A stretch of 40,475 nucleotides of DNA from a virus, in the IMG/VR virus record IMGVR_UViG_3300031972_002460, positions 1 through 40,475 of that record; one strand, given 5' to 3'. The notes beneath the pieces are model-generated. The model ran no database searches. It was not told the origin of the DNA and was given only the letters and a program-made list of their open reading frames with translations. A program made the position numbers and the translations under genes. The number at the start of each line of letters is the position of its first letter. Position 1 is the first letter of the stretch. Shown here piece by piece: positions 3,985 to 40,143 of this stretch.

Positions 3985-4919
3985 GGCCCCGAGACGTCAA
4001 TCAGCACCGCCGCGATCGCCGATGCATTCCCGTAGTTGGCAGCCTGCACCCGATAGTTACGCGCGCCTCCGTCGATCAGATCGTCGTACTCCGTCCCGCC
4101 CTGCGTCGCACTCATGCGGTACCAGGGCGCCAGAAGGCCCGGCAGCATGCCCATGATCCAGTTGGTGCTGCCCGAGTTCCCCCCATCGCGCGCTACATGC
4201 ATGGGGCTGCAGCGGAGCGCGGCACCATTGGGCTCGGCGCTACCCGTGACGTTAAGCCGGCCATCCCCCAGCGCCGAGCCTGTCATGTAGTGCCCGACAA
4301 GGCGGGGTTTGACCTCGGTCAGTGTGCCGGCGGCGTCCGGAATCGCATGCACACGATCCAGGGCCGACGTCGTGTTGATGTTGTGCAGGTCGGACTGCTG
4401 CCCTGGAAAGGACTCGCTACCGGACGAAGAGCCGGAGAACATCGAGACCGCGCCCGGCGAGTCGTGGGCCGGCAGCAGATCCCCGAACACGTGATGGATA
4501 TAGCTGTACGTCGCGTTGCTGTGCCACTTCGCGAAGAAGTGCATGAACGCCTCGTCGCCATAGATAGCCCAGGGGCGCGCCGTTGCATCGCTGGTGCTGC
4601 TCTTGCGCCAGTACCGCGCCGTTGCCGTCGCCGGGAAACCTCCCGTTCCTGTATCGACATCGCTCATCACATCGTAGGCATTGACGATCGCGTACTGCGC
4701 GTTGCTGTCATCCACGCGAAGGTAGCGCCCGCTGTTAGTCGCGTGATCGAGCCGATAGGCCGCCTTGTTCGTGCCGCTGAAAGCCTTGGTCCAGCCAAGC
4801 GCCGCCTTGCTGCCGTAGCCGTTCACGAGCACGGCGTCGAGCAGCGCGATCAGTGCGCCCACCTGGCCACTGAGCACCGGCGCGCCGGCGTCTTCGCTGG
4901 TGTAGTAGTTCACGCCCAT
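3975..4919 (-). CDS. Tail-tip-associated protein of unknown function
   Basis: A 314-residue protein starting at the ATG at 4919 (MGVNYYTSEDAG), chosen because the open frame further upstream only reads antisense-like sequence inside the neighbouring gene. It begins with a small domain (residues 1-60) and has a Ser/Gly/Asn-rich, beta-type composition throughout, like receptor-binding or tail-tip proteins. It lies 10 bases after the large 1171-residue protein. No family is recognised. A receptor-binding role is a guess from position and composition. Confidence 0.65.
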   Translation of the reverse strand: MGVNYYTSEDAGAPVLSGQVGALIALLDAVLVNGYGSKAALGWTKAFSGTNKAAYRLDHATNSGRYLRVDDSNAQYAIVNAYDVMSDVDTGTGGFPATATARYWRKSSTSDATARPWAIYGDEAFMHFFAKWHSNATYSYIHHVFGDLLPAHDSPGAVSMFSGSSSGSESFPGQQSDLHNINTTSALDRVHAIPDAAGTLTEVKPRLVGHYMTGSALGDGRLNVTGSAEPNGAALRCSPMHVARDGGNSGSTNWIMGMLPGLLAPWYRMSATQGGTEYDDLIDGGARNYRVQAANYGNASAIAAVLIDVSGPWR

Positions 4920-4929
4920 GTCTTGGTCC

Positions 4930-7900
4930 TCAGTTCGCGTCGCCGCGCAGCTCGATCTGGAAGCGGTCCTCGGGGTCGGTGAGCGGCCCGGCCAAGGTGC
5001 AGCGGTTGAACCAGATCGGCCGCGCTGCGGCTTCGGTGTTGAAGCGCAGTTGGTTGCCGATGTTCCAGCCACCGGACCAGCCTGCGGCCTGCAGCGTGAA
5101 GTACGGCGCGCCGGTGGCAGGGTTGAGCGGGCTGCAGTCGAGCCCGACTTCGCCGACGCCGACCTGGCCGACCGTTTCGCCGATCACGCGGAACGCGTTC
5201 ACGCTGGTGAACTCGACGCGCCAGCGCTCGCGGATTGCCCCTTCGTTGGTGACAAGGATCGGCGAGACCGTGTTGTTGTACTGGCCGACGCTGGGGTCGC
5301 CGATCAGCACGTCGGACCATTCCTCCGTCCACGTCTCCTGGCCGAACACGCCGAAGGCGCTGGCCTGCAGCTCGTTGCCGAGCGGCAGCGCCGTGCTCAG
5401 GAACGAGGTGTCAGCAGGATAGTCGTGCGTGATCTGCGCGTTGAATCCGACGTAGCCGCTGAGCTGGGCGTCGGTGACCAGCAGCATGTCCTCGATCCGG
5501 TGATAGACCGTGAGCGGCTGCGTGAAGTCGTCCAGGTCGAGCGGGTTCGCCATCTCCACATCGCCGCTCTCCTTGTCCCAGGTGTAGCGGTCTGTCGGGA
5601 TCAGCACGTTCTCGGCGTCGCGGATCTCCAGCCAGCTGATGTACGGCCGCGTCTCGTAGGTCTGCCCGGCGACGGCAGGGTTCGGCAGCTCGGTGGTCTG
5701 CGTGTTGTGCAACACCGCCACGTCCGCCGGCTGGATCGTCGGGATGCGGCCGTCGACGGACAAGCGCACGGGATCTAGGCCGATGATCTCGGGGTCGAGC
5801 GGCAGGTAGGTGATGGCGACGGCGTTGTATGTCGCAAGCTCGGGCACGACGTCGTCGGTCCACGTGAGCGCGTAGACGCCTGTGTCGTAGTTCACCGTGC
5901 CGACCAGGCCGCCCGCGCCGGCGATGTCCCCGGCATTGTCTGCCGTTGCCTGGTCCGCCACGGTCTGGTCGAACCGCGTATAGGTGATCTGGAAGCTCGC
6001 GGCCTTGAGCCGGGGCGCATCGACGCGCCAGAACGCGCTCGTCAACGGCCAGCGGCCATACGCGACCAGCAATCCGTTGACGGTACCCGCCGCCGCGCCG
6101 GTCTCCCAATCCGTGAACGAAACGATGCCCTCAACATAGTTGACGGCCCCCGCCTGGATTTCGTTGCCATTGTCGTCGCGGTAGTAGGCGATACCGGCGC
6201 GGTCGTAGTAGCGCACACCCTGGAAGTTCAGCCACAGGCTCTGCGGGACGATGCCGTACTGCAGGTCCGCGCCTTCCAGACGCAGCTCCAGCGTATCGAT
6301 CGGAGCGGAGTCATCTTGCACAACCGGCGTGCCGCCGGTGCTGTAAATGATCTGCGATGCAGACACGAACGTCGCGTTCGCATCTGTCGACTCCCACGTG
6401 TGCAGCCCGATCAGGTAGCTGGCGACCGTCATGGCGTCGACAGCCGTGGCGTCGAGTTCGACGTCGCCGCTGCTGTAGTTGATCGTGCCGACCGCTGCAC
6501 CGCCCTTGAACCACGTGGCCGTTCGCCCTCCCGTGAACTTCACGTCGCGCGCGGAAATCATCGCGCCGACACCGTTGTCGACCAGCTCCACCTGCTTGCT
6601 CGTGCCATTCGCAGAGTACGTCGCGACCAGGCGCACGGAGCCGGGCGTGATGGAGCCGTTGGCCGTTGTATGGGTCAGGGATGCCCCCGGCCAGCTCTCC
6701 GTGTAGCGATCCCCCGGCGTCTCGTAGGCGACACTTAGCGCCGTGCCAGGCGCCGGCACCTGCGTGAGTACGGCCCGCACCTGGCCCGTCGCGTAGTCGA
6801 TGGTCCCGGTGGCGCCGCCGGTCAGGGCGCCGCTGCCGTCGTCGCCGATCGTGTAGGGCACCGCGGCGACGGTGTACCCGAGATCCAGGGAGCCTGGCTC
6901 GACCGGCAGCTCGGTGAGCTGCAGGATCAGCTCCGGCACGCGCGCACTCACGGGGCCGCTCGGCCCTTGGTAGTGCACTGCGCTGCCCCAGCCGTACAGG
7001 ATGTGGCTGCCGATATCGGGCTCGGCGCCCAGCGTCAGGTTCACGGAACCCGTCGCGTAGTTGATCGTGCCCGCACCTTCGCCGCTGCTGCCGGTGACGG
7101 TGCCGTCACCTCGATCGCGCAGGCTGATCCAGCGACCGAGCGCGCGGTACTCGACGCGCAGCGCGCCGGGCTGTGGCGCCGGCTCCAGGGTGCGCGTCCA
7201 GACGAGTCCGCGATTGGCGAGCGTGACCTCCACGCCATCGGTGTGCTGGACGTCCGCGACCGCAGCAGCAGGCTGATACACGACTGTGCTGCTCGCGGGG
7301 TCGAGCGTACCTGACGCGACGCTCATGCCGGTGACGATGATCTGTCCGTTTCGGTAGTCGACAGTGCCGGCGACATCGACCGGCACGCTGCCGCCGCTCG
7401 ACTCCTGGCGCACGAGCAGGCCGCGGCCGTCATCGACCAGAACATGCTGATGCGCGCTGCTCTGGCCGGTCGGCCGCACGCTGATCTCTACGGTCTCCGG
7501 CATCAGCGCGTGCTCGGTGAGGATGACAGCGGCGTTGTTGGCGATGCTGACGCCGCGCACCGTTTCCGTGAGCGTCGCCGCGCTTTCAAGTCCCGCGAGC
7601 GGCACGAGTGTCTGCGTGTCGGCACCGATCTGCTGGTCGACGATGCCGGTCTCCTGCGTCGCGGCAGGCACCACGGGCGTGAGCACGCTCTCGACCGTGC
7701 AGCCGGTGTCTTCGGCGTCGATCGCCTCCGTGATCTTGTGGATGCTGTAGTACCGCTTGCCGCCGGCGAGCGTCGTCCGGCGCACCGCGGTCTTCTGCAG
7801 GTTCGGCTGATTGAACGCGAACTCTTCGCCAGGCACATCGAAGCGCAGCGGCTGATCGATGGTGATGTCGATGAGCTTGAGCGTCTTGGTGCCGTAGTTC

Positions 7901-18007: not shown

Positions 18008-18035
18008 GTCAGGTCAGGGCGTGAAACGTTTCACC
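18008..18035 (-). promoter_or_regulatory. Late promoter element, PI-like, left copy
   Basis: On the minus strand this is GGTGAAACGTTTCACGCC followed by CTGACCTGAC. It contains the perfect 14-bp palindrome GTGAAACGTTTCAC (18021-18034) and ends 28 bases before the protease ATG. A 28-bp perfect copy in opposite orientation lies before the endolysin gene. CG-repeats adjoin both copies. No sigma-70 -10 box is seen, which suits an activator-dependent Mu late promoter. Position matches Mu PI. The role is inferred. Confidence 0.75.
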
Positions 18036-25127: not shown

Positions 25128-25389
25128 GGCCGTCACCTCCGATCCGGAGCTTCTTGGCAGCGTCGGACTTGAGGAACTGCAGGATGGTGCGCATCGCCGC
25201 CTCGGCATCGCGCGACGGCGTGCGGGCGAAGTGCTGCAGCAGCGCCTGCTGCAGCTGCGCCTCGTTGAACACCCAGGCGGCACCTGGCGGCGGCAGCGTG
25301 GGGCCGCCTGCAGCGAGCACATTGCGGCTCGGCGGCACCGCACCGCCGGCCTCCGTGATCGGACGAAGCATCGCGACGGCGGCGCTCAC
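25120..25389 (-). CDS. Small early protein after transposition ATPase
   Basis: An 89-residue protein. GTG 25389 is chosen because it overlaps the ATPase stop (GTGA). The N-terminus is Pro/Gly-rich and the C-terminal half helical (FNEAQLQQALLQHFARTPSRDAEAAMRTILQFL). Being coupled to the MuB-like gene it may act in transposition or replication, but no family is recognised. Confidence 0.65.
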   Translation of the reverse strand: MSAAVAMLRPITEAGGAVPPSRNVLAAGGPTLPPPGAAWVFNEAQLQQALLQHFARTPSRDAEAAMRTILQFLKSDAAKKLRIGGDGHA

Positions 25390-26450
25390 TTGGCACCTCC
25401 GGCCTTGATCGGCATGCGGATGGCTTCCTTGGCGATCTGCAGCACCAGGGCGCGATCGAGCTGGCGGCCTCGACGCAGGCCGTAGTCGCGGATGCTGGGG
25501 ATCAGCGCCTCGACGAGGACGCGGGCCGATCCGCCGCAGACTTCCCACATCGCATCGAGCGCCGCTTTGTCGATCTGTTGCTCGTTCGGGAACGCGGCGA
25601 GGATGATCTCCTCGGCGTCGCGCCGATCGATCGACGTGATCGGGTCCGGCCAGAAGCCGATGCGCGAGCGGATGCGGTTGAAGCGCCCGGTGTTGGGCTT
25701 GACCAGGCCCAGCAGCTTCGGCGCGCCCTGCAGCACGACACCGATCTTGGCGACGTCGCGAATGCGCCGCGCGTACTCGAGCGCGGCCGGCTCCAGCTCT
25801 TCGGCTTCGTCGAGGATGATGACGGTGTCTGTGCCCTTGAGCGCACTGACGATGCGCTTGAACTTGGCGTTCGGGTTGGCGCTGCCGCGCATCTCGTGCT
25901 GGAGGCTGAGCTGCTCAAGCAGCTCGTCGAGCAGCGCGCCTTCCGCCATCTTCGGCAGCACTTCGATGAACAGCGTGTTGCTGTAGCGGGCGCGATACTC
26001 CTGCCCCGCGCGCGTCTTGCCGGTGCCGACTTCGGAGATGAAGACACCCATCATCCGGTAGATGCGCACGCGGTGATACACGCTGCAGGCGTATCGGTAG
26101 ACGCTGCAGCTATCGACGAACGGCACAACGCGCGAGGTCTGGCGCTCGTCGGTCGTTGCCATCGTGTCCAGGGCGGCGCGAATCCACTTCGCCGGGGACG
26201 AGGGGTACTTGCCGCGCAGCACCTGGTTGAAGGTGCCGATGTTGATGCGCGAAGCGCGCGCCAGCCAGCTCTGGATGTACGTGCCGGCGTTGAGCCACTT
26301 GATGATCTTGGCGACGTTCTCTTTGTCTTCGTCCGTGAACGATGCGTGCCACACATCGGGCACGACCAGGAGCGAGACAACCTCCTCCATGTCCAGCGGA
26401 GGCGCCTCCTCTGGCAGGTCTTCGACGATGTTGATGCTGGGACTGCTCAT
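25386..26450 (-). CDS. Transposition target-selection ATPase, MuB-like
   Basis: A 354-residue AAA+ protein. An N-terminal helix-turn-helix region (residues ~45-95, WLARASRINIGTFNQVLRGKY) precedes the Walker A SEVGTGKT (139-146) and Walker B TVIILDEAEEL (209-219). In Mu, B polymerises on target DNA with ATP, stimulates the transposase and gives target immunity. It directly follows transposase A, as in Mu. Confidence 0.93.
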   Translation of the reverse strand: MSSPSINIVEDLPEEAPPLDMEEVVSLLVVPDVWHASFTDEDKENVAKIIKWLNAGTYIQSWLARASRINIGTFNQVLRGKYPSSPAKWIRAALDTMATTDERQTSRVVPFVDSCSVYRYACSVYHRVRIYRMMGVFISEVGTGKTRAGQEYRARYSNTLFIEVLPKMAEGALLDELLEQLSLQHEMRGSANPNAKFKRIVSALKGTDTVIILDEAEELEPAALEYARRIRDVAKIGVVLQGAPKLLGLVKPNTGRFNRIRSRIGFWPDPITSIDRRDAEEIILAAFPNEQQIDKAALDAMWEVCGGSARVLVEALIPSIRDYGLRRGRQLDRALVLQIAKEAIRMPIKAGGAK

Positions 26451-26483: not shown

Positions 26484-28094
26484 TCAGTAGTCGGTGTTCA
26501 GAAGGTCGAGGGGCGGCAACCCCTCGGCCTTTTCTTCTTCAGGCGGCAGCTCTGCCGCCCCGAAGCTCTCCAGCTGCTTGATCGCGGACTCGCCGGTGAT
26601 GGCCGGGCGCGCCATCGCTTCGAGCAGCTCCTGTCTCTGCTGTAGACGGCGCACCTGACCGTCGAGCCGGCGACGCTCCAGATCCGCGATGCGTCCACCG
26701 TCGATCCACGGCTTGGCGTCGACCTTCTCGGCGGTGCCGATGAGTCGGCCCTTGAGGTCGTAGAGCAGCACCGCGGTGTCGTTGTGCAGGTCGTACTCGA
26801 CCTGGACGTCGCGCCCCTCGAACGCCGCCAGGGCGGCGGCCTCGTACACGCGGTTGAACATCTGCACGCGGTAGCTGCGCGCTTTGCGGATCTCGCGCGG
26901 GCGCATGAGCGCGGACGCGGGGATGTGCACCGGGTGACGTTCCAGCGTCTCCCACAGCGCGGCCGGGCTGCGGTTGCTGCGGCCATTGGCGTCGGTGAGC
27001 GCGCGCTGGTTTCGCTCGTTGTAGGCGCGCACGTACTTGGCGATCCCTGCGAGCGCTTCGTCCCAGGCAGGCACGTACATCTCGCCCTGTTCGATGCGCT
27101 TGGTCAGTCGGCGCAGGAACTCCTGCGGGACTTCCGGCCCGTGGTAGCTCGGCTGGAACTTGCCGTGCTTCTCCTCGAACCAGCGGAACCAGCCTTCGAT
27201 GTCGCCTTTGCCCCGCGCGTTGCCGGGCAGCGCAGTCATGACGTCTTCGGGCCTCAGCCCGATCCGCGGCGCGAAGCCGGCCACGGCGTCGATGATCATC
27301 TTGTTCTTGAAGCCGCTACCCGGATCGACATGCAGCATCGCCATGACATGGTCGTGCGACAGCAGCGCGTGACTCAGCGAGTACAGCGTCTGCACTGCAC
27401 TCTCCGCGTAGCCAAGCCACCAGCCGGTGATGTAGCGACTGCCGATGTCCATCCACGGCGTCAGCTCGGCGGTGATGTGGTGGCCGGCTTCGGGATGGCG
27501 CACGTAGTAGTGCAGCGCGTGGCCGTCGCCCTGGTAGATGAGGCCCACCGGCACGACGCTGCGGTCGCGGATCACATGCGGCGTCAGGTTCTGGCGGCGG
27601 TAGTGCGGGCCGACGCGCCTGGGGTGGAACTCGCCCTCGTTCGTGGGGATGCTGTCGAGGTAGCGCCGCACGCGACCGTCTGTGGCATCGGCGAAGCCAT
27701 GCTCGTCGCGCAGCTTCTCGGCGATGGTCGACGCGGCGAGCTTGCTCGGCAGGCGGAAGTACTCCAGCGCCAGCGCCTCCCAGCCGCCGTTGCGGCGCCG
27801 ACGGCCGGTGTTGCCGCTGACCAGCGCCGGCACGCCGTGATCGAGATAGCGCTGCAGGTGCCGCTCGATGCTGCTGGCGGACAGGCCAATCTCGCCGCCG
27901 CGCGTCTTGGCCAGCCACTTGCTCGCGCACTTCACGCTCAGGCCGTGGCCGCGCACCTTGAGCACGGCCGGCATCAGGTGCGCCTCCAGGCGCAGCGCGT
28001 CAGTGCGCTGCTTGTCCGTGCACGCGCCGAGCGGATCGTCGGCGACGGGGACGAGCGGCTGCACGACTTGGCGGAGGAGCGCGGCGGCCGACAT
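26484..28094 (-). CDS. DDE transposase, MuA-like
   Basis: A 536-residue transposase. After an N-terminal DNA-binding part with helix-turn-helix segments (~50-150), the RNase H-like core shows the catalytic triad: Asp-190 in IYQGDGHALH, Asp-257 in LHVDPGSGFKNK, and Glu-300 in GKGDIEGWFRWFEEK. A beta-barrel C-terminal domain follows (~400-470). It is somewhat shorter than Mu A (663), probably lacking part of the N-terminal enhancer-binding region. It cuts and joins the phage ends for integration and replicative transposition. Its ATG shares one base with the upstream stop. Confidence 0.95.
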   Translation of the reverse strand: MSAAALLRQVVQPLVPVADDPLGACTDKQRTDALRLEAHLMPAVLKVRGHGLSVKCASKWLAKTRGGEIGLSASSIERHLQRYLDHGVPALVSGNTGRRRRNGGWEALALEYFRLPSKLAASTIAEKLRDEHGFADATDGRVRRYLDSIPTNEGEFHPRRVGPHYRRQNLTPHVIRDRSVVPVGLIYQGDGHALHYYVRHPEAGHHITAELTPWMDIGSRYITGWWLGYAESAVQTLYSLSHALLSHDHVMAMLHVDPGSGFKNKMIIDAVAGFAPRIGLRPEDVMTALPGNARGKGDIEGWFRWFEEKHGKFQPSYHGPEVPQEFLRRLTKRIEQGEMYVPAWDEALAGIAKYVRAYNERNQRALTDANGRSNRSPAALWETLERHPVHIPASALMRPREIRKARSYRVQMFNRVYEAAALAAFEGRDVQVEYDLHNDTAVLLYDLKGRLIGTAEKVDAKPWIDGGRIADLERRRLDGQVRRLQQRQELLEAMARPAITGESAIKQLESFGAAELPPEEEKAEGLPPLDLLNTDY

Positions 28095-29113
28095 CAGGCC
28101 ACCTTCTTGACCGTGCGCGGACGGCCACGGCCACCCTTGGCATTGGCGCGCTCGGCGTCGCGGTTCTCGGCCAGCGTCTTGTGACGCTTGAGGACGATGC
28201 CCAGGGCATCCTTCGCCATCTGCAGCTCGCCGTCCGTCAGCGAGTGCTCGAAGTCCAGCTTGCCGGTGACCGGCTTACCCCACTGCGCGTGGATCTTCGC
28301 CAGCAGCTCCTCGGTCCGTGCATGCACCGAGCGCAGGCTGTGATACAGCGTGCCGGCCGCGCGCTCCGCCCACTCCGGATAGGTCTTGGCTTCCTTGTCG
28401 CCGATCAGGCGATCCGTCACCACGTCTTCGAGCGCGGTGATGGACAGCGTCATCTGCTCGGCCAGCGCCACCGCCTCCTGCCGCGCGTGGGCGGCGAAGT
28501 CCGGCATCTTCAGGGCTTCATAGCGGTGTTTGAGGGCGCCTTTCAGCTCCTTTACTTCGGCTTCGAGCCCTTCGTTATCGGCTTCCAGGGCGGCGATCTT
28601 CTTGCCGGCCTTGATCAGCTCCGGATCGCGCGCCGCTTCGGCAAACTCGCGGGCAGACATCTCGACGGCCTGGTCGACGGTCAATCCGCGAACCTTCTGC
28701 CCCTTGGCGAAGGCAAGCCGCTCCTCCGGCGTCCAGGTCAGCAGCGTGATGGCCTTGGTCTGACCGAGCTGTCCAAACGTTTGGACAGACTGTTCATCGG
28801 GTAGCTCTGCGAACGCCTGATAGACCGCGACGGCGTTGTAGTAGGCCGAGCGCGAGACGTGCCGGCGGGTCAGCTCCTCCGCGAACTCCGCCTTGTCCAA
28901 GCGCTTGGACAGCTCCAGCAGCGCCCGGCCTGCCACCACCCTGCCGGCCATCTCCATCTCGAAGGCACGCTGCGCAACGGCCCACAAGGTTGTGACGTCG
29001 TCGCCTGCCTCGGCGATCTGCGCCAGGGTGCGCTGCAGATAGCTCTGCAGCGGACTCGGCATCTCGGCGAGCAGGCCCGCGCCTGTCTTCGTCACGGCTT
29101 TCGTTTTGTTCAT
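28094..29113 (-). CDS. ParB/KorB-type HTH DNA-binding protein
   Basis: A 339-residue protein between ner and the transposase. Residues ~84-152 (VSRSAYYNAVAVYQAF, LGQTKAITLLTWTPEERLAFAKGQKVRGLTVDQAVEM) follow the helix-turn-helix plan of ParB/KorB-family proteins: recognition helix, linker, then the ee-x-la-x-gltv helix. A coiled coil follows at ~165-200, helices to ~310, and a basic tail with an AT-hook-like GGRGRPR. The N-terminal ParB CTPase motif is not evident. Two perfect palindromes lie within the gene and one in its leader. The start has GAGGAAAGC upstream. It may bind these sites to regulate the early operon or organise phage DNA. Confidence 0.65.
   Translation of the reverse strand: MNKTKAVTKTGAGLLAEMPSPLQSYLQRTLAQIAEAGDDVTTLWAVAQRAFEMEMAGRVVAGRALLELSKRLDKAEFAEELTRRHVSRSAYYNAVAVYQAFAELPDEQSVQTFGQLGQTKAITLLTWTPEERLAFAKGQKVRGLTVDQAVEMSAREFAEAARDPELIKAGKKIAALEADNEGLEAEVKELKGALKHRYEALKMPDFAAHARQEAVALAEQMTLSITALEDVVTDRLIGDKEAKTYPEWAERAAGTLYHSLRSVHARTEELLAKIHAQWGKPVTGKLDFEHSLTDGELQMAKDALGIVLKRHKTLAENRDAERANAKGGRGRPRTVKKVA
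28769..28788. promoter_or_regulatory. 20-bp palindrome, candidate binding site 1
   Basis: CTGTCCAAACGTTTGGACAG is a perfect palindrome inside the ParB-type gene, where it encodes SVQTFGQ. The core GTCCAA-CG-TTGGAC class is shared with sites 2 and 3. Confidence 0.7.
28894..28911. promoter_or_regulatory. 18-bp palindrome, candidate binding site 2
   Basis: TGTCCAAGCGCTTGGACA, perfect, in the ParB-type gene. It is read in a different codon frame from site 1 (here LSKRLDK), so the DNA and not the peptide is what the two sites share. Confidence 0.7.
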
Positions 29114-29139
29114 GCTTTCCTCACAACGGCGTTAAGAAG

Positions 29140-29187
29140 CCCCGGCGCCGTCGCGCCGGGGAGTGATCGCCTGCCGTGGGGCAGGCG
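29140..29187 (-). repeat. Two hairpins in the leader of the ParB-type gene
   Basis: CCCCGGCGC/GCGCCGGGG (29140-29161, 4-base loop) and CGCCTGCC/GGCAGGCG (29168-29187, 4-base loop) lie in the 163-base gap upstream of the gene. The leftward side ends CTTCTTAAC, a poor U tract, so partial termination or processing is possible. With palindrome 3, they make this leader look regulatory. Confidence 0.6.
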
Positions 29188-29252
29188 GGAGGAGATCGAC
29201 CCCTCATGACTGGATAGACGGCGGGATTGCCCACCGGCCGCGGACTGGCGTC

Positions 29253-29270
29253 CGTCCAAGCGCTTGGACG
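29253..29270. promoter_or_regulatory. 18-bp palindrome, candidate binding site 3
   Basis: CGTCCAAGCGCTTGGACG, perfect, in the gap between the ParB-type gene and the next gene upstream. It shares GTCCAAGCGCTTGGAC with site 2. Distances between site centres are 124 and 359 bp. Confidence 0.7.
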
Positions 29271-29276
29271 AGGCGT

Positions 29277-29753
29277 TCACGTGCTGAGCCGCCGGGTGAG
29301 TTCGCCGACCTTGCGGCGCAGCGAGGCGATCTCGACGTGTGCATCGCCCAGGGCCTTGGCAGCCACCTCGCGGGCGTCGACCATCTCGTTGCCGAGCGCA
29401 CGCACGACCACCTCGGCGGCGGACTCGTCCTCGACGGCCCAGCAGAAGGCGGGCAGCCATTCGGCAGGCAGCCGATGGAACTCCTTGCTGTCCGCCATCC
29501 ACGAGTCGACCTGGCGCTTCGTGATCGGGCGGTCGATGCCCGGCAGCGCTAGGTTCATGCGGTCAGCGATGCGCTCGCGGCTGATGCCGCGCGACCGGGC
29601 ACGGCGCATCGCGGCATCGATCGAGCCCCGCAGCTCGGCGGCGATGGTCAGGTCGGGCGCGTTCGCCCGGTGAACCACTGGCGGCTCCTCCATCCGGGCG
29701 AACAGATCGCCTTGGTTGGTGGAGAAATTCCGTTGTGCCTTTACCCGCGACAT
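29277..29753 (-). CDS. Early protein of unknown function
   Basis: A 158-residue protein between ner and the ParB-type gene. A segment with helix-turn-helix character is at ~55-85 (RARSRGISRERIADRMNLALPG then TKRQVDSWM), with a coiled coil at the C-terminus (VAAKALGDAHVEIASLRRKVGELTRRL). DNA binding is likely. Proteins of this kind recur in early operons of Mu-like phages, but I cannot name the family. Confidence 0.7.
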   Translation of the reverse strand: MSRVKAQRNFSTNQGDLFARMEEPPVVHRANAPDLTIAAELRGSIDAAMRRARSRGISRERIADRMNLALPGIDRPITKRQVDSWMADSKEFHRLPAEWLPAFCWAVEDESAAEVVVRALGNEMVDAREVAAKALGDAHVEIASLRRKVGELTRRLST

Positions 29754-29799: not shown

Positions 29800-30033
29800 T
29801 CAGGCGGCCCGCCGCAGGCGGCGGCGGCCGGTCTTGCGGGGCCACAGCTCCGCGACCGAGCGCTTCGTCGCTTTGGCTACGGCGGCCTGGATGCGCCGGC
29901 TGGTGTCGTTGCCGGCGATGACTGAACTGACGGTGCCGGGGTGCACCCCGAGCGCTTCCGCGATCCGGCAGACGCCGGATTCGTTCTTGTGGAGCAAAGC
30001 GATGATGTCGGCCCGGTGCATATTCTGTTTCAC
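29800..30033 (-). CDS. ner: Ner-like transcription regulator
   Basis: A 77-residue first gene of the early operon. It matches the Ner/Nlp plan: HRADIIALLHKNESGVCRIAEALGVHPGTVSS is the helix-turn-helix and AELWPRK is the conserved end (Mu has VIWPSRY). In Mu, Ner turns down early and repressor transcription. The start may be GTG 30033 or ATG 30021; neither has a strong ribosome-binding site. Confidence 0.85.
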   Translation of the reverse strand: MKQNMHRADIIALLHKNESGVCRIAEALGVHPGTVSSVIAGNDTSRRIQAAVAKATKRSVAELWPRKTGRRRLRRAA

Positions 30034-30057
30034 GTCCGCCCAATCTGTTGGGCGGAC
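30034..30057. promoter_or_regulatory. Palindromic operator at the early promoter
   Basis: Perfect 10-bp arms GTCCGCCCAA and TTGGGCGGAC separated by TCTG. It spans the end of the early -10 box and the predicted transcription start, so a bound repressor or Ner would block early transcription. Confidence 0.75.
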
Positions 30058-30084
30058 TATCGCTCAAAGGATTGGACGTGTCAA
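30056..30084 (-). promoter_or_regulatory. Early promoter for the leftward transposition operon
   Basis: Minus strand: TTGACA (30084-30079), 17-base spacer, GATAGT (30061-30056). The -35 is perfect and the -10 matches four of six. It overlaps the start of the repressor gene and the operator, giving a compact lysis-lysogeny switch. Confidence 0.8.
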
Positions 30085-30842
30085 CGATTGACGCGCAACA
30101 GGCTGGACAACGCTTTGATGAAGAGGTCAAGAGGCTGGGCGGACCGACCTTTGTGGCGTCGATCGTCGGCAAATCGCGCAACACGATTTACAACTGGGTG
30201 TCCACGGCGGACATGACCGTTGCGGACCTTGGCAAGCTCGCCGAGGCCGGCATGGATGTGCAGTACGTCCTCTACGGAGAGCGCAGCAGCGTCGTGCGGG
30301 ACGAGAGCGGTGAGTACGCCGTGCGCGCCTACGATCGCCTGGCTGGCTTTGTGCAGAGCGACGAGGCGCGGCAGATCCGCGTGCTGGTGGGCGGGCAAGA
30401 GCATTTCGTTGACCCGGACCACTACCGCTGGGTGCCAGTCCTCAACGTGCGCGTCTCAGGTGGGCCGGGTGGCACGGCCTTCGGCGAGAACATCGTCGCG
30501 TTCAACGCCTACCGCCGTGAGTGGCTCGACAAGAAGGGTCTGCACGACGCGATGCTCAGCGAGGTGACGGTGACCGGCGAGTCCATGTCACCCGAGCTGC
30601 GTGAAGGCGACACCGTGCTCGTCAACCACTCCGCGAACGAGCTGCAGGGCGGCGCGATCTACGTGATCCGCCAGGGCGAGGAACTGCTGGTGAAGTACCT
30701 GCAGCCGCTGCCCGGCGGGAAGATCCAGGTGAACAGCGAGAACAGCGCTGCGTATCCGAGCTACAACATCGAACCGGCTGACTTCGACAGCGGCGAGTGC
30801 GAGATCGTGGGCCGCGTCGTGCGCCAGGGGCGCGATCGGTGA
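30078..30842 (+). CDS. CI-like repressor, S24 family
   Basis: A 254-residue repressor diverging from ner. GTG 30078 is chosen for its AAAGGA ribosome-binding site and because the frame upstream reads through the operator. Residues 24-45 hold the helix-turn-helix (TFVASIVGKSRNTIYNWVS). The C-terminal half is a LexA-like S24 domain with Ser-169 in GESMSPELREGD and Lys-206 in LLVKYLQPL. The cleavage loop reads RVSGGPGG, where Ala-Gly is usual. Autocleavage would allow DNA-damage induction. Confidence 0.9.
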   Translation: MSTIDAQQAGQRFDEEVKRLGGPTFVASIVGKSRNTIYNWVSTADMTVADLGKLAEAGMDVQYVLYGERSSVVRDESGEYAVRAYDRLAGFVQSDEARQIRVLVGGQEHFVDPDHYRWVPVLNVRVSGGPGGTAFGENIVAFNAYRREWLDKKGLHDAMLSEVTVTGESMSPELREGDTVLVNHSANELQGGAIYVIRQGEELLVKYLQPLPGGKIQVNSENSAAYPSYNIEPADFDSGECEIVGRVVRQGRDR

Positions 30843-31243: not shown

Positions 31244-31918
31244 GTGCGGTCGAAGAAGGCCAAGCAGCTTTGCGTGATCTGCGGCTCACGTCCAGCAACG
31301 ACCAGGGACCACATCCCACCGAAAGCACTGTTCGGCGCGCCGAGGCCTAACAATCTAATCACTGTTCCCGCGTGCTTCGGCTGCAACCACCGTGGCGGAC
31401 GGGAGGACGAGCGCTTCGTCGCATTCATCGGCCTGCACGCAGCTCAAAGAGCAACTAGGCCGCTTAATGATCCTGCTTTTCAGGCAGCGGTAAAAATCAT
31501 TCAGCGCAACAACAAGCTGTACCGGCACGTCATCGACAACTCGCAGACGATCGACATCGTAACGCCCTCAGGAATCTTCCTCGAGAAGCGACGTGCCGTG
31601 ATGTGGGATTCAAGCGCTCATTCGACAGTGCTCACCCGCATGGTTCGCGGCCTGTACTACCACCACACGAAAAGCATCCTGCCGCAGGATGCTCGCATCC
31701 AGATCAATTGGCACTATCGGCTCGACGACGAGTTAGTAGAGATGCTGCGCCGGATGCGCATGGTCCGCATCGGTGGCGATGCCTTCGTCTACTTCTTCGG
31801 AATCGCCGACACCGCCCCCACAAGCTCGGTGTGGGTCTTTCGGTTCCATGCCTCGCACATAGCCAGCGCCACGACGGACGCGCCATTGCATGGTGAAACG
31901 TTTCACGCCCTGACCTGA
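31244..31918 (+). CDS. HNH-type protein in the repressor operon
   Basis: A 224-residue protein from GTG 31244, 3 bases after the previous gene. A treble-clef HNH-like module is at residues 10-55: CVICG, then RDHIPPKALF, then PNNLITVPACFGCNHRGGRED, giving paired zinc cysteines and DH/N/H candidates. The remaining ~165 residues are unrecognised. Its last codons run through the late promoter element, and the stop lies inside it. Base use is less GC-rich than its neighbours. Being expressed with the repressor, it could be a prophage-encoded defence nuclease. Confidence 0.7.
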   Translation: MRSKKAKQLCVICGSRPATTRDHIPPKALFGAPRPNNLITVPACFGCNHRGGREDERFVAFIGLHAAQRATRPLNDPAFQAAVKIIQRNNKLYRHVIDNSQTIDIVTPSGIFLEKRRAVMWDSSAHSTVLTRMVRGLYYHHTKSILPQDARIQINWHYRLDDELVEMLRRMRMVRIGGDAFVYFFGIADTAPTSSVWVFRFHASHIASATTDAPLHGETFHALT

Positions 31919-39681: not shown

Positions 39682-40143
39682 ATGGCGACAGAGTTCGCGG
39701 TACGGGTCGAGAATCAGGGTGTACTGCAGGTGCTGCAGCGGCTGTCCAGCCGCCTGGACGATCTCACGCCGTTCATGGAGGAGGTCTCCGGCGTCCTGGC
39801 GTTCGGCGTTGAGGAGGCGTTCCGGCTGGAGCAAGACCCGGTCTCCGGCGCCGCCTGGGAGGAGCTGGCCGACGCCACCGTCGCCCAGCGATCGGCAGAC
39901 GGCCACTGGCCGGGAAAGATGCTCCAGGTGACGGGCCAGCTCGCGGCGAGTTTCTCGACCGATTTCGGCCCCGACTTCGCGATGGTCGGCACCAACCTGG
40001 AGTACGCGGCCATCCATCAGTTCGGCGGCAAGGCCGGCCGCAACCGGTCCGTCGACATCCCGGCCCGACCGTATCTCGGACTGTCCGACGACTCGGCCGC
40101 GGAGATTCTGGTGATCGCCGAGCGCTACCTCGCCGAGGATTAA
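39682..40143 (+). CDS. Virion morphogenesis protein (Mu gpG-like)
   Basis: A 153-residue protein with the gpG plan: a long helical start (VLQVLQRLSSRLDDLTPFMEEV), then GKMLQVTGQLAASF, then YAAIHQFGGKAGRNRSVDIPARPYLGLS. In Mu, G acts in late head and tail assembly and is followed by gene I. Here it is the last gene of the rightward operon and I lies in the other operon. Confidence 0.93.
   Translation: MATEFAVRVENQGVLQVLQRLSSRLDDLTPFMEEVSGVLAFGVEEAFRLEQDPVSGAAWEELADATVAQRSADGHWPGKMLQVTGQLAASFSTDFGPDFAMVGTNLEYAAIHQFGGKAGRNRSVDIPARPYLGLSDDSAAEILVIAERYLAED

Follow-up and report, generated by a model that had tools for sequence, protein, structure and literature searches.

The gene lying directly upstream of transposase A in the window (the whole 40,475-base viral record analysed here) appears, on balance, to encode a sequence-specific DNA-binding autoregulator with its operator embedded in its own coding sequence. 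Covariation among related genes makes it highly probable that the protein binds the palindrome within its own gene. The comparison of alleles strongly supports a helix-turn-helix (HTH) that would recognise this palindrome, with HTH codons and site forming a compact specificity cassette. Recognition of the own-gene site by its own product is indicated by three comparative lines, namely the covariation of HTH and site, a sister HTH type and the third codon positions. In each phage, a single gene seems to hold both a private lock and its key, which probably serve to control the gene's own expression.

Table 1. Palindromes, their carrier gene and neighboring features in the window
Feature	Position	Strand	Remarks
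In-gene palindrome 1, CTGTCCAAACGTTTGGACAG, 20 bp	28769-28788		Perfect; directly after the HTH codons
In-gene palindrome 2, TGTCCAAGCGCTTGGACA, 18 bp	28894-28911		Perfect; before the HTH codons
Leader palindrome, CGTCCAAGCGCTTGGACG, 18 bp	29253-29270		Perfect
DUF3102/phrog_1748 HTH protein, 339 aa	28094..29113	-	ORF; phrog_1748, E 2e-8
Predicted recognition-helix segment of the HTH, codons 85-102, HVSRSAYYNAVAVYQAFA	28808..28861	-	Alignment with B3-type HTH; model helix 88-102
Transposase A	26484..28094	-	PF09299, phrog_310; start overlaps the stop of the window gene, directly downstream
Transposition protein B (AAA ATPase)	25386..26450	-	PF13401, phrog_296
CII-like regulator, upstream	29277..29753	-	phrog_2345, phrog_101
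Ner-like protein	29800..30033	-	PF13693, phrog_769
CI-like repressor with S24 peptidase domain	30048..30842	+	PF00717, phrog_4
Terminator-like GC-rich hairpin in the leader	29140..29161	-	Followed by T residues; missed by one scan

By profile, the window gene belongs to the DUF3102/phrog_1748 family. PHROGs place its product in phrog_1748, a group annotated as of unknown function, and the sole Pfam match is a sub-threshold one to DUF3102 (PF11300; E 4e-4, 21.1 bits against a cut-off of 24.4), a profile matched by 34 of 40 aligned family members. As in Mu-like phages, the gene is positioned between the early regulators and transposase A, with the ner/CII-like genes on one side, in agreement with the original prediction (table 1). 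ORF13 of phage B3, DUF3102 (PF11300), phrog_1748 and phrog_4623 represent the same gene family at the same place of the operon; their records are annotated as of unknown function, and the embedded site is unannotated in those examined.

The three perfect palindromes that had been predicted are all present, and an exact search of the 40,475-base record with GTCCAARCGYTTGGAC returned three matches, all at the window gene or its leader, without the fourth copy whose absence had also been anticipated. The leader copy is found 140 bp 5' of the start codon, right behind the stop of the upstream ORF. With up to three mismatches, five matches occur in the whole record against 0.45 expected, a number reached by 0 of 100 shuffles. 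Palindrome 1 is read as SVQTFGQ (TCT GTC CAA ACG TTT GGA CAG), and palindrome 2, in a different frame as foreseen, as LSKRLD (CTG TCC AAG CGC TTG GAC). The position of palindrome 1, just after the HTH codons, is that of the embedded site in B3-type genes. In a synonymous-shuffle test the window gene alone gave a modest p of 0.016, and the window case draws its strength from the threefold occurrence of a single sequence and from the family pattern rather than from this single-gene test.

The only close relative of the window gene is that of L004 (58% identity), which is devoid of the window palindrome and carries inside its first codons two copies of another one, TGTGCGGGCGCCCGCACA, with none elsewhere in the 40.0 kb of contig read. 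In L004, an odd palindrome resembling a Fur box (GAGAATGATTCTC / TGAGAATCATTCTCA; 4915-5000) follows each in-gene palindrome, and the pair of palindrome and Fur-box-like element is duplicated within the N-terminal codons. Just before the DUF3102 gene of L004 (about 4825-4855) there is also a strong GC-rich hairpin with T residues, similar to that of the window leader, which suggests a terminator or attenuator in both. A tblastn search of phages and plasmids with the window protein gave no match, and a second viral scan, with the window/L004 alignment, returned the contig of L004 only.

The exact window palindrome was searched for in 2.9 million viral contigs and in bacterial genomes. It was found in 32 viral and 12 genome stretches, which we estimate to be near chance for collections of these sizes; apart from those inside or right beside DUF3102-like genes, the matches look unrelated, and the exact sequence was rejected as a general marker. 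Inside a DUF3102-like gene it occurs in L005/L021 (three copies in the contig of L005), L024 and L036 from the viral scan and in L046 from the genome scan, while in L032 it is located directly beside such a gene. It precedes the HTH in L036 and follows it in L005, L024 and L046. The L024 gene has a further palindrome, AGTCCAGCCGGCTGGACT, near codon 114, and the outer half-site of this palindrome is the same as that of the GTCCAAACGTTTGGAC site in the gene. In L045, two copies of the window palindrome stand beside a run of N and are probably an assembly artefact.

L036 led to ORF13 of phage B3 and its relatives. Each of the first eight B3-type records contains one perfect palindrome of 26-28 bp at the same place in the gene, with a phage-specific sequence; such fixed-position, allele-specific palindromes are found in B3, Ps59, KP12, PhiKM and prophages of E. 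coli. For instance, the proteins of B3 and Ps59 are ~91% identical overall, with most of the differences concentrated in the HTH segment, and their palindromes differ too. With 110 IMG/VR genes and those of further phages and of E. coli prophages added, the set comprised 93 distinct genes. In 86 of them, a 24-bp core is symmetric at 10 or more of 12 positions and so forms a near-perfect palindrome, which in 85 stands at a fixed position right after the HTH codons; at this threshold no clear site was found in the other seven. In nearly all cases the palindrome is centered 119 or 122 nt downstream of the motif HGxF. The DNA of the half-site begins ~35 residues past HGxF, and therefore the recognition helix is not encoded by the site. 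The gene of L157 has an intact recognition helix, but the loss of one base, which also shifts the frame, disrupts its embedded site.

In the Mu-like phages examined, the DUF3102-type gene is located upstream of transposase A. Some relatives have other replication or packaging genes in their neighborhood, and relatives are also present in prophages without the look of transposable elements. As a query, the gene together with part of transposase A found matches in 638 out of 5426 complete genomes of E. coli. No second good site was found in the B3 genome, nor any beyond the in-gene one in ten prophage regions. The exception is the relative G001, with two further sites, each just before the start codon of another gene; this is the placement expected of operators and supports the operator reading.

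In a sample drawn from about 460 genomes by protein profile alone, 14 of 31 genes reached a palindrome score of 9, as did 2 of 31 control ORFs taken from these loci. Against synonymous shuffles, 12 of the profile-drawn genes and 1 control ORF had p ≤0.05. At the thresholds used, a clear site is absent in about half of the genes of this sample. The original prediction was to be given up if the genes of homologues lacked such sites; the outcome was the opposite, sites being present in most homologues, though generally with a different sequence.

The variation of the site follows that of the HTH. Among 68 unique B3-type genes, site distance correlates with HTH distance (r=0.54) and not with the distance of the rest of the protein (0.008). 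The partial Mantel correlation of site and HTH given the rest of the protein is 0.54, a value reached by 0 of 2000 permutations, none of which exceeded 0.12. In pairs less than 12% different outside the HTH, the site differs by 2% if the HTHs are alike and by 33% if they differ by more than 30%. Mutual information peaks between helix residues 16, 17, 19 and 20 (numbered from the H of HGxF as 0) and half-site columns 7, 8, 6 and 9, respectively. Arg16 is combined with G7 in 56 of 56 cases and Arg20 with C9 likewise in 56 of 56, with zero exceptions also after collapse to 29 distinct helix/site pairs. Identical helices in different HTH backgrounds have identical sites. Among genes with the same helix, the identity at third codon positions is 0.98 inside the site and 0.42-0.43 in the flanks; genes were grouped here by helix alone, grouping by site being partly circular. 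Exchanges involve HTH and site jointly, the two lying within some 120 bp, and part of their correlation could come from linkage. Hitch-hiking within the cassette is nevertheless unlikely because the base-residue rules are exact.

A sister type is formed by JBD18, JBD25, CF53b and their relatives, which have the C-terminal region in common with the B3-type proteins and a different N-terminal part and HTH. In about a dozen alleles, these genes have, ahead of the HTH codons, a pair of odd palindromes at a distance of 76 bp, whose half-sites are 0.90 identical within a gene and 0.59 between genes (0 of 5000 permutations). It is difficult to account for two separate coding positions that change together with the HTH other than by a single DNA-binding protein. 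Proteins of this type are annotated as 'ATPase involved in DNA repair' in L067 and similar records, and as of unknown function in PHROGs.

Under the autoregulator reading, the bound protein would block transcription within the gene, a roadblock suggested by the position of the site only. In this way it would hold down its own production as well as the expression of the early genes downstream, in Mu-like phages those of transposases A and B. The two intragenic sites and the leader site of the window may act together. Recombination would exchange the HTH codons and the site in one piece, so that protein and site remain matched. More speculatively, many specificities may be kept since related phages and prophages cohabit cells and would otherwise cross-repress.

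The main rival, which we regard as rather unlikely, takes the palindrome as a cis mark at which the protein nucleates in order to organise, synapse, protect or count phage DNA. It would be similar to partition, enhancer or target-immunity systems, the in-gene place serving only to keep protein and mark linked. The usual single site per phage, in the gene and away from the promoter, is in its favor, as are the place of the gene upstream of transposase A in the Mu-like phages examined, the long predicted helices behind the HTH and the weak fold similarity to the DNA-binding domain of Spo0J/ParB. Against it are the G001 sites just before start codons, the relatives in prophages not looking transposable, and the absence of a CTPase domain and of ParA. 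The comparison with the central gyrase site of Mu made in the original prediction is unsupported and appears unlikely, since the site is in an early gene, is allele-specific and has related sites in the non-transposable-looking prophages.

The original prediction had also described the product as a ParB/KorB-like HTH protein. The HTH is supported and the ParB type is not. The AF2 model of the window protein is mostly helical, with an HTH core at pLDDT about 90 and long helices behind it. Foldseek retrieved Thermus Spo0J (1vz0; probability 0.84, E 0.6), a weak fold similarity of the HTH core, and a ParB-like HTH fold is possible from the model. The B3-type model is closer to Raf1 than to Spo0J, and the search for sequence relatives in the PDB gave chance-level matches only. 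Neither the ParB_N CTPase domain (PF02195) nor ParA (PF13614), the latter already noted as not visible in the original prediction, was found in the window and five related phages, while control genomes were positive; with both absent from these six phage records, membership of the ParB/partition proteins was rejected. Of the proposed KorB-like regulator of the early operon, the early-operon regulator survives as the best reading and the KorB/ParB affiliation does not. The likeness to ParB/Spo0J and KorB is that of an HTH protein, a palindromic site and the weak similarity of the HTH core, and the differences are the lack of the CTPase domain, of ParA and of a Pfam ParB match, as well as the hypervariable specificity and the site number of usually one. 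In Bacillus subtilis, a parS site is located inside spo0J.

An RNA element, that is, an intragenic mRNA hairpin or terminator, is very improbable. Many B3-type genes do have AAAA and TTTT on either side of the palindrome, which would give a GC-rich hairpin followed by U residues. However, the sites of the window, of G001 and most of the JBD type are without a T tract, and the symmetric changes follow the residues of the recognition helix; as a general explanation the terminator was rejected, many alleles having no T tract. Also very improbable is a palindrome that is the target of an unrelated factor and correlates with the HTH by linkage in a recombining cassette. The proximity and joint exchange of HTH and site would fit, but the base-residue rules at the recognition-helix positions are exceptionless across HTH backgrounds, and a second HTH type on the same C-terminal region behaves alike with two sites. 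A coincidence, in which conserved peptides happen to be palindrome-encoded, has a negligible probability: VQTFG does recur behind the HTH in the window, L005, L024 and L046, but it stands before the HTH in L036, the peptide varies by allele, the window sites are read in different frames and third codon positions are frozen within the site, so that protein constraint does not explain the palindromes, as had been argued originally.

Roadblock repression at sites in transcribed DNA is known (review PMC10310618), and a passage of PMC4132739 cites an intragenic operator at which PurR forms a transcription roadblock on purB. As in the autoregulator proposed here, a DNA-binding repressor acts at a transcribed site downstream of the promoter. 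In purB the site is reportedly in a gene other than that of the regulator and shows no variation among alleles, whereas the phage site is allele-specific and lies next to the recognition-helix codons of the very gene that encodes the regulator. In cluster A mycobacteriophages, repressor specificity and sites (stoperators) diversify among relatives, and the sites can sit in transcribed genes (PMC6550527). Diversifying repressor-site pairs and sites that may be within transcribed genes are common to both systems. On the contrary, cluster A has many dispersed sites and a repressor of lysogeny, and here one or two gene-confined palindromes are usual, in an early lytic operon; the many dispersed sites of stoperators were not seen in B3 and the ten prophage regions, with their single in-gene site. 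In the literature searched, with most subscription journals outside its scope, a hypervariable target beside the recognition-helix codons of the same gene in a large phage family is not described, and the novelty of an embedded, allele-specific own-gene site is provisional.

For the DUF3102 gene of many Mu-like phages, a specific activity is proposed, with a target predictable from the sequence. With its site inside the segment that is exchanged, a regulator can switch specificity and yet keep that site, and the family offers a natural set of matched HTH-operator pairs, useful for learning protein-DNA recognition. Tentatively, these genes could form a self-identity system of mobile elements, in which a DNA-binding protein and its private target share one ORF, the target being next to the recognition-helix codons, with a readable base-residue code. 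Specificity would evolve and be exchanged as a cassette, and the allele would assign each co-resident transposable phage to a compatibility or exclusion group. In a small sample from a few genomes, with six same-type groups of co-resident prophages, alleles differ in three of the six.

Two further pairs of sites were noticed in the window. Degenerate copies of the GTCCAA palindrome, with 2 and 3 mismatches, are located near both ends of the record (946-961 and 39744-39759), at about chance level. Two identical 14-bp palindromes, GTGAAACGTTTCAC (0.04 matches expected), are found at 18021-18034, 42 bp before a protease-like gene (minus strand), and at 31893-31906, 40 bp before a lysozyme-like gene (plus strand), and are possibly operators of another regulator.
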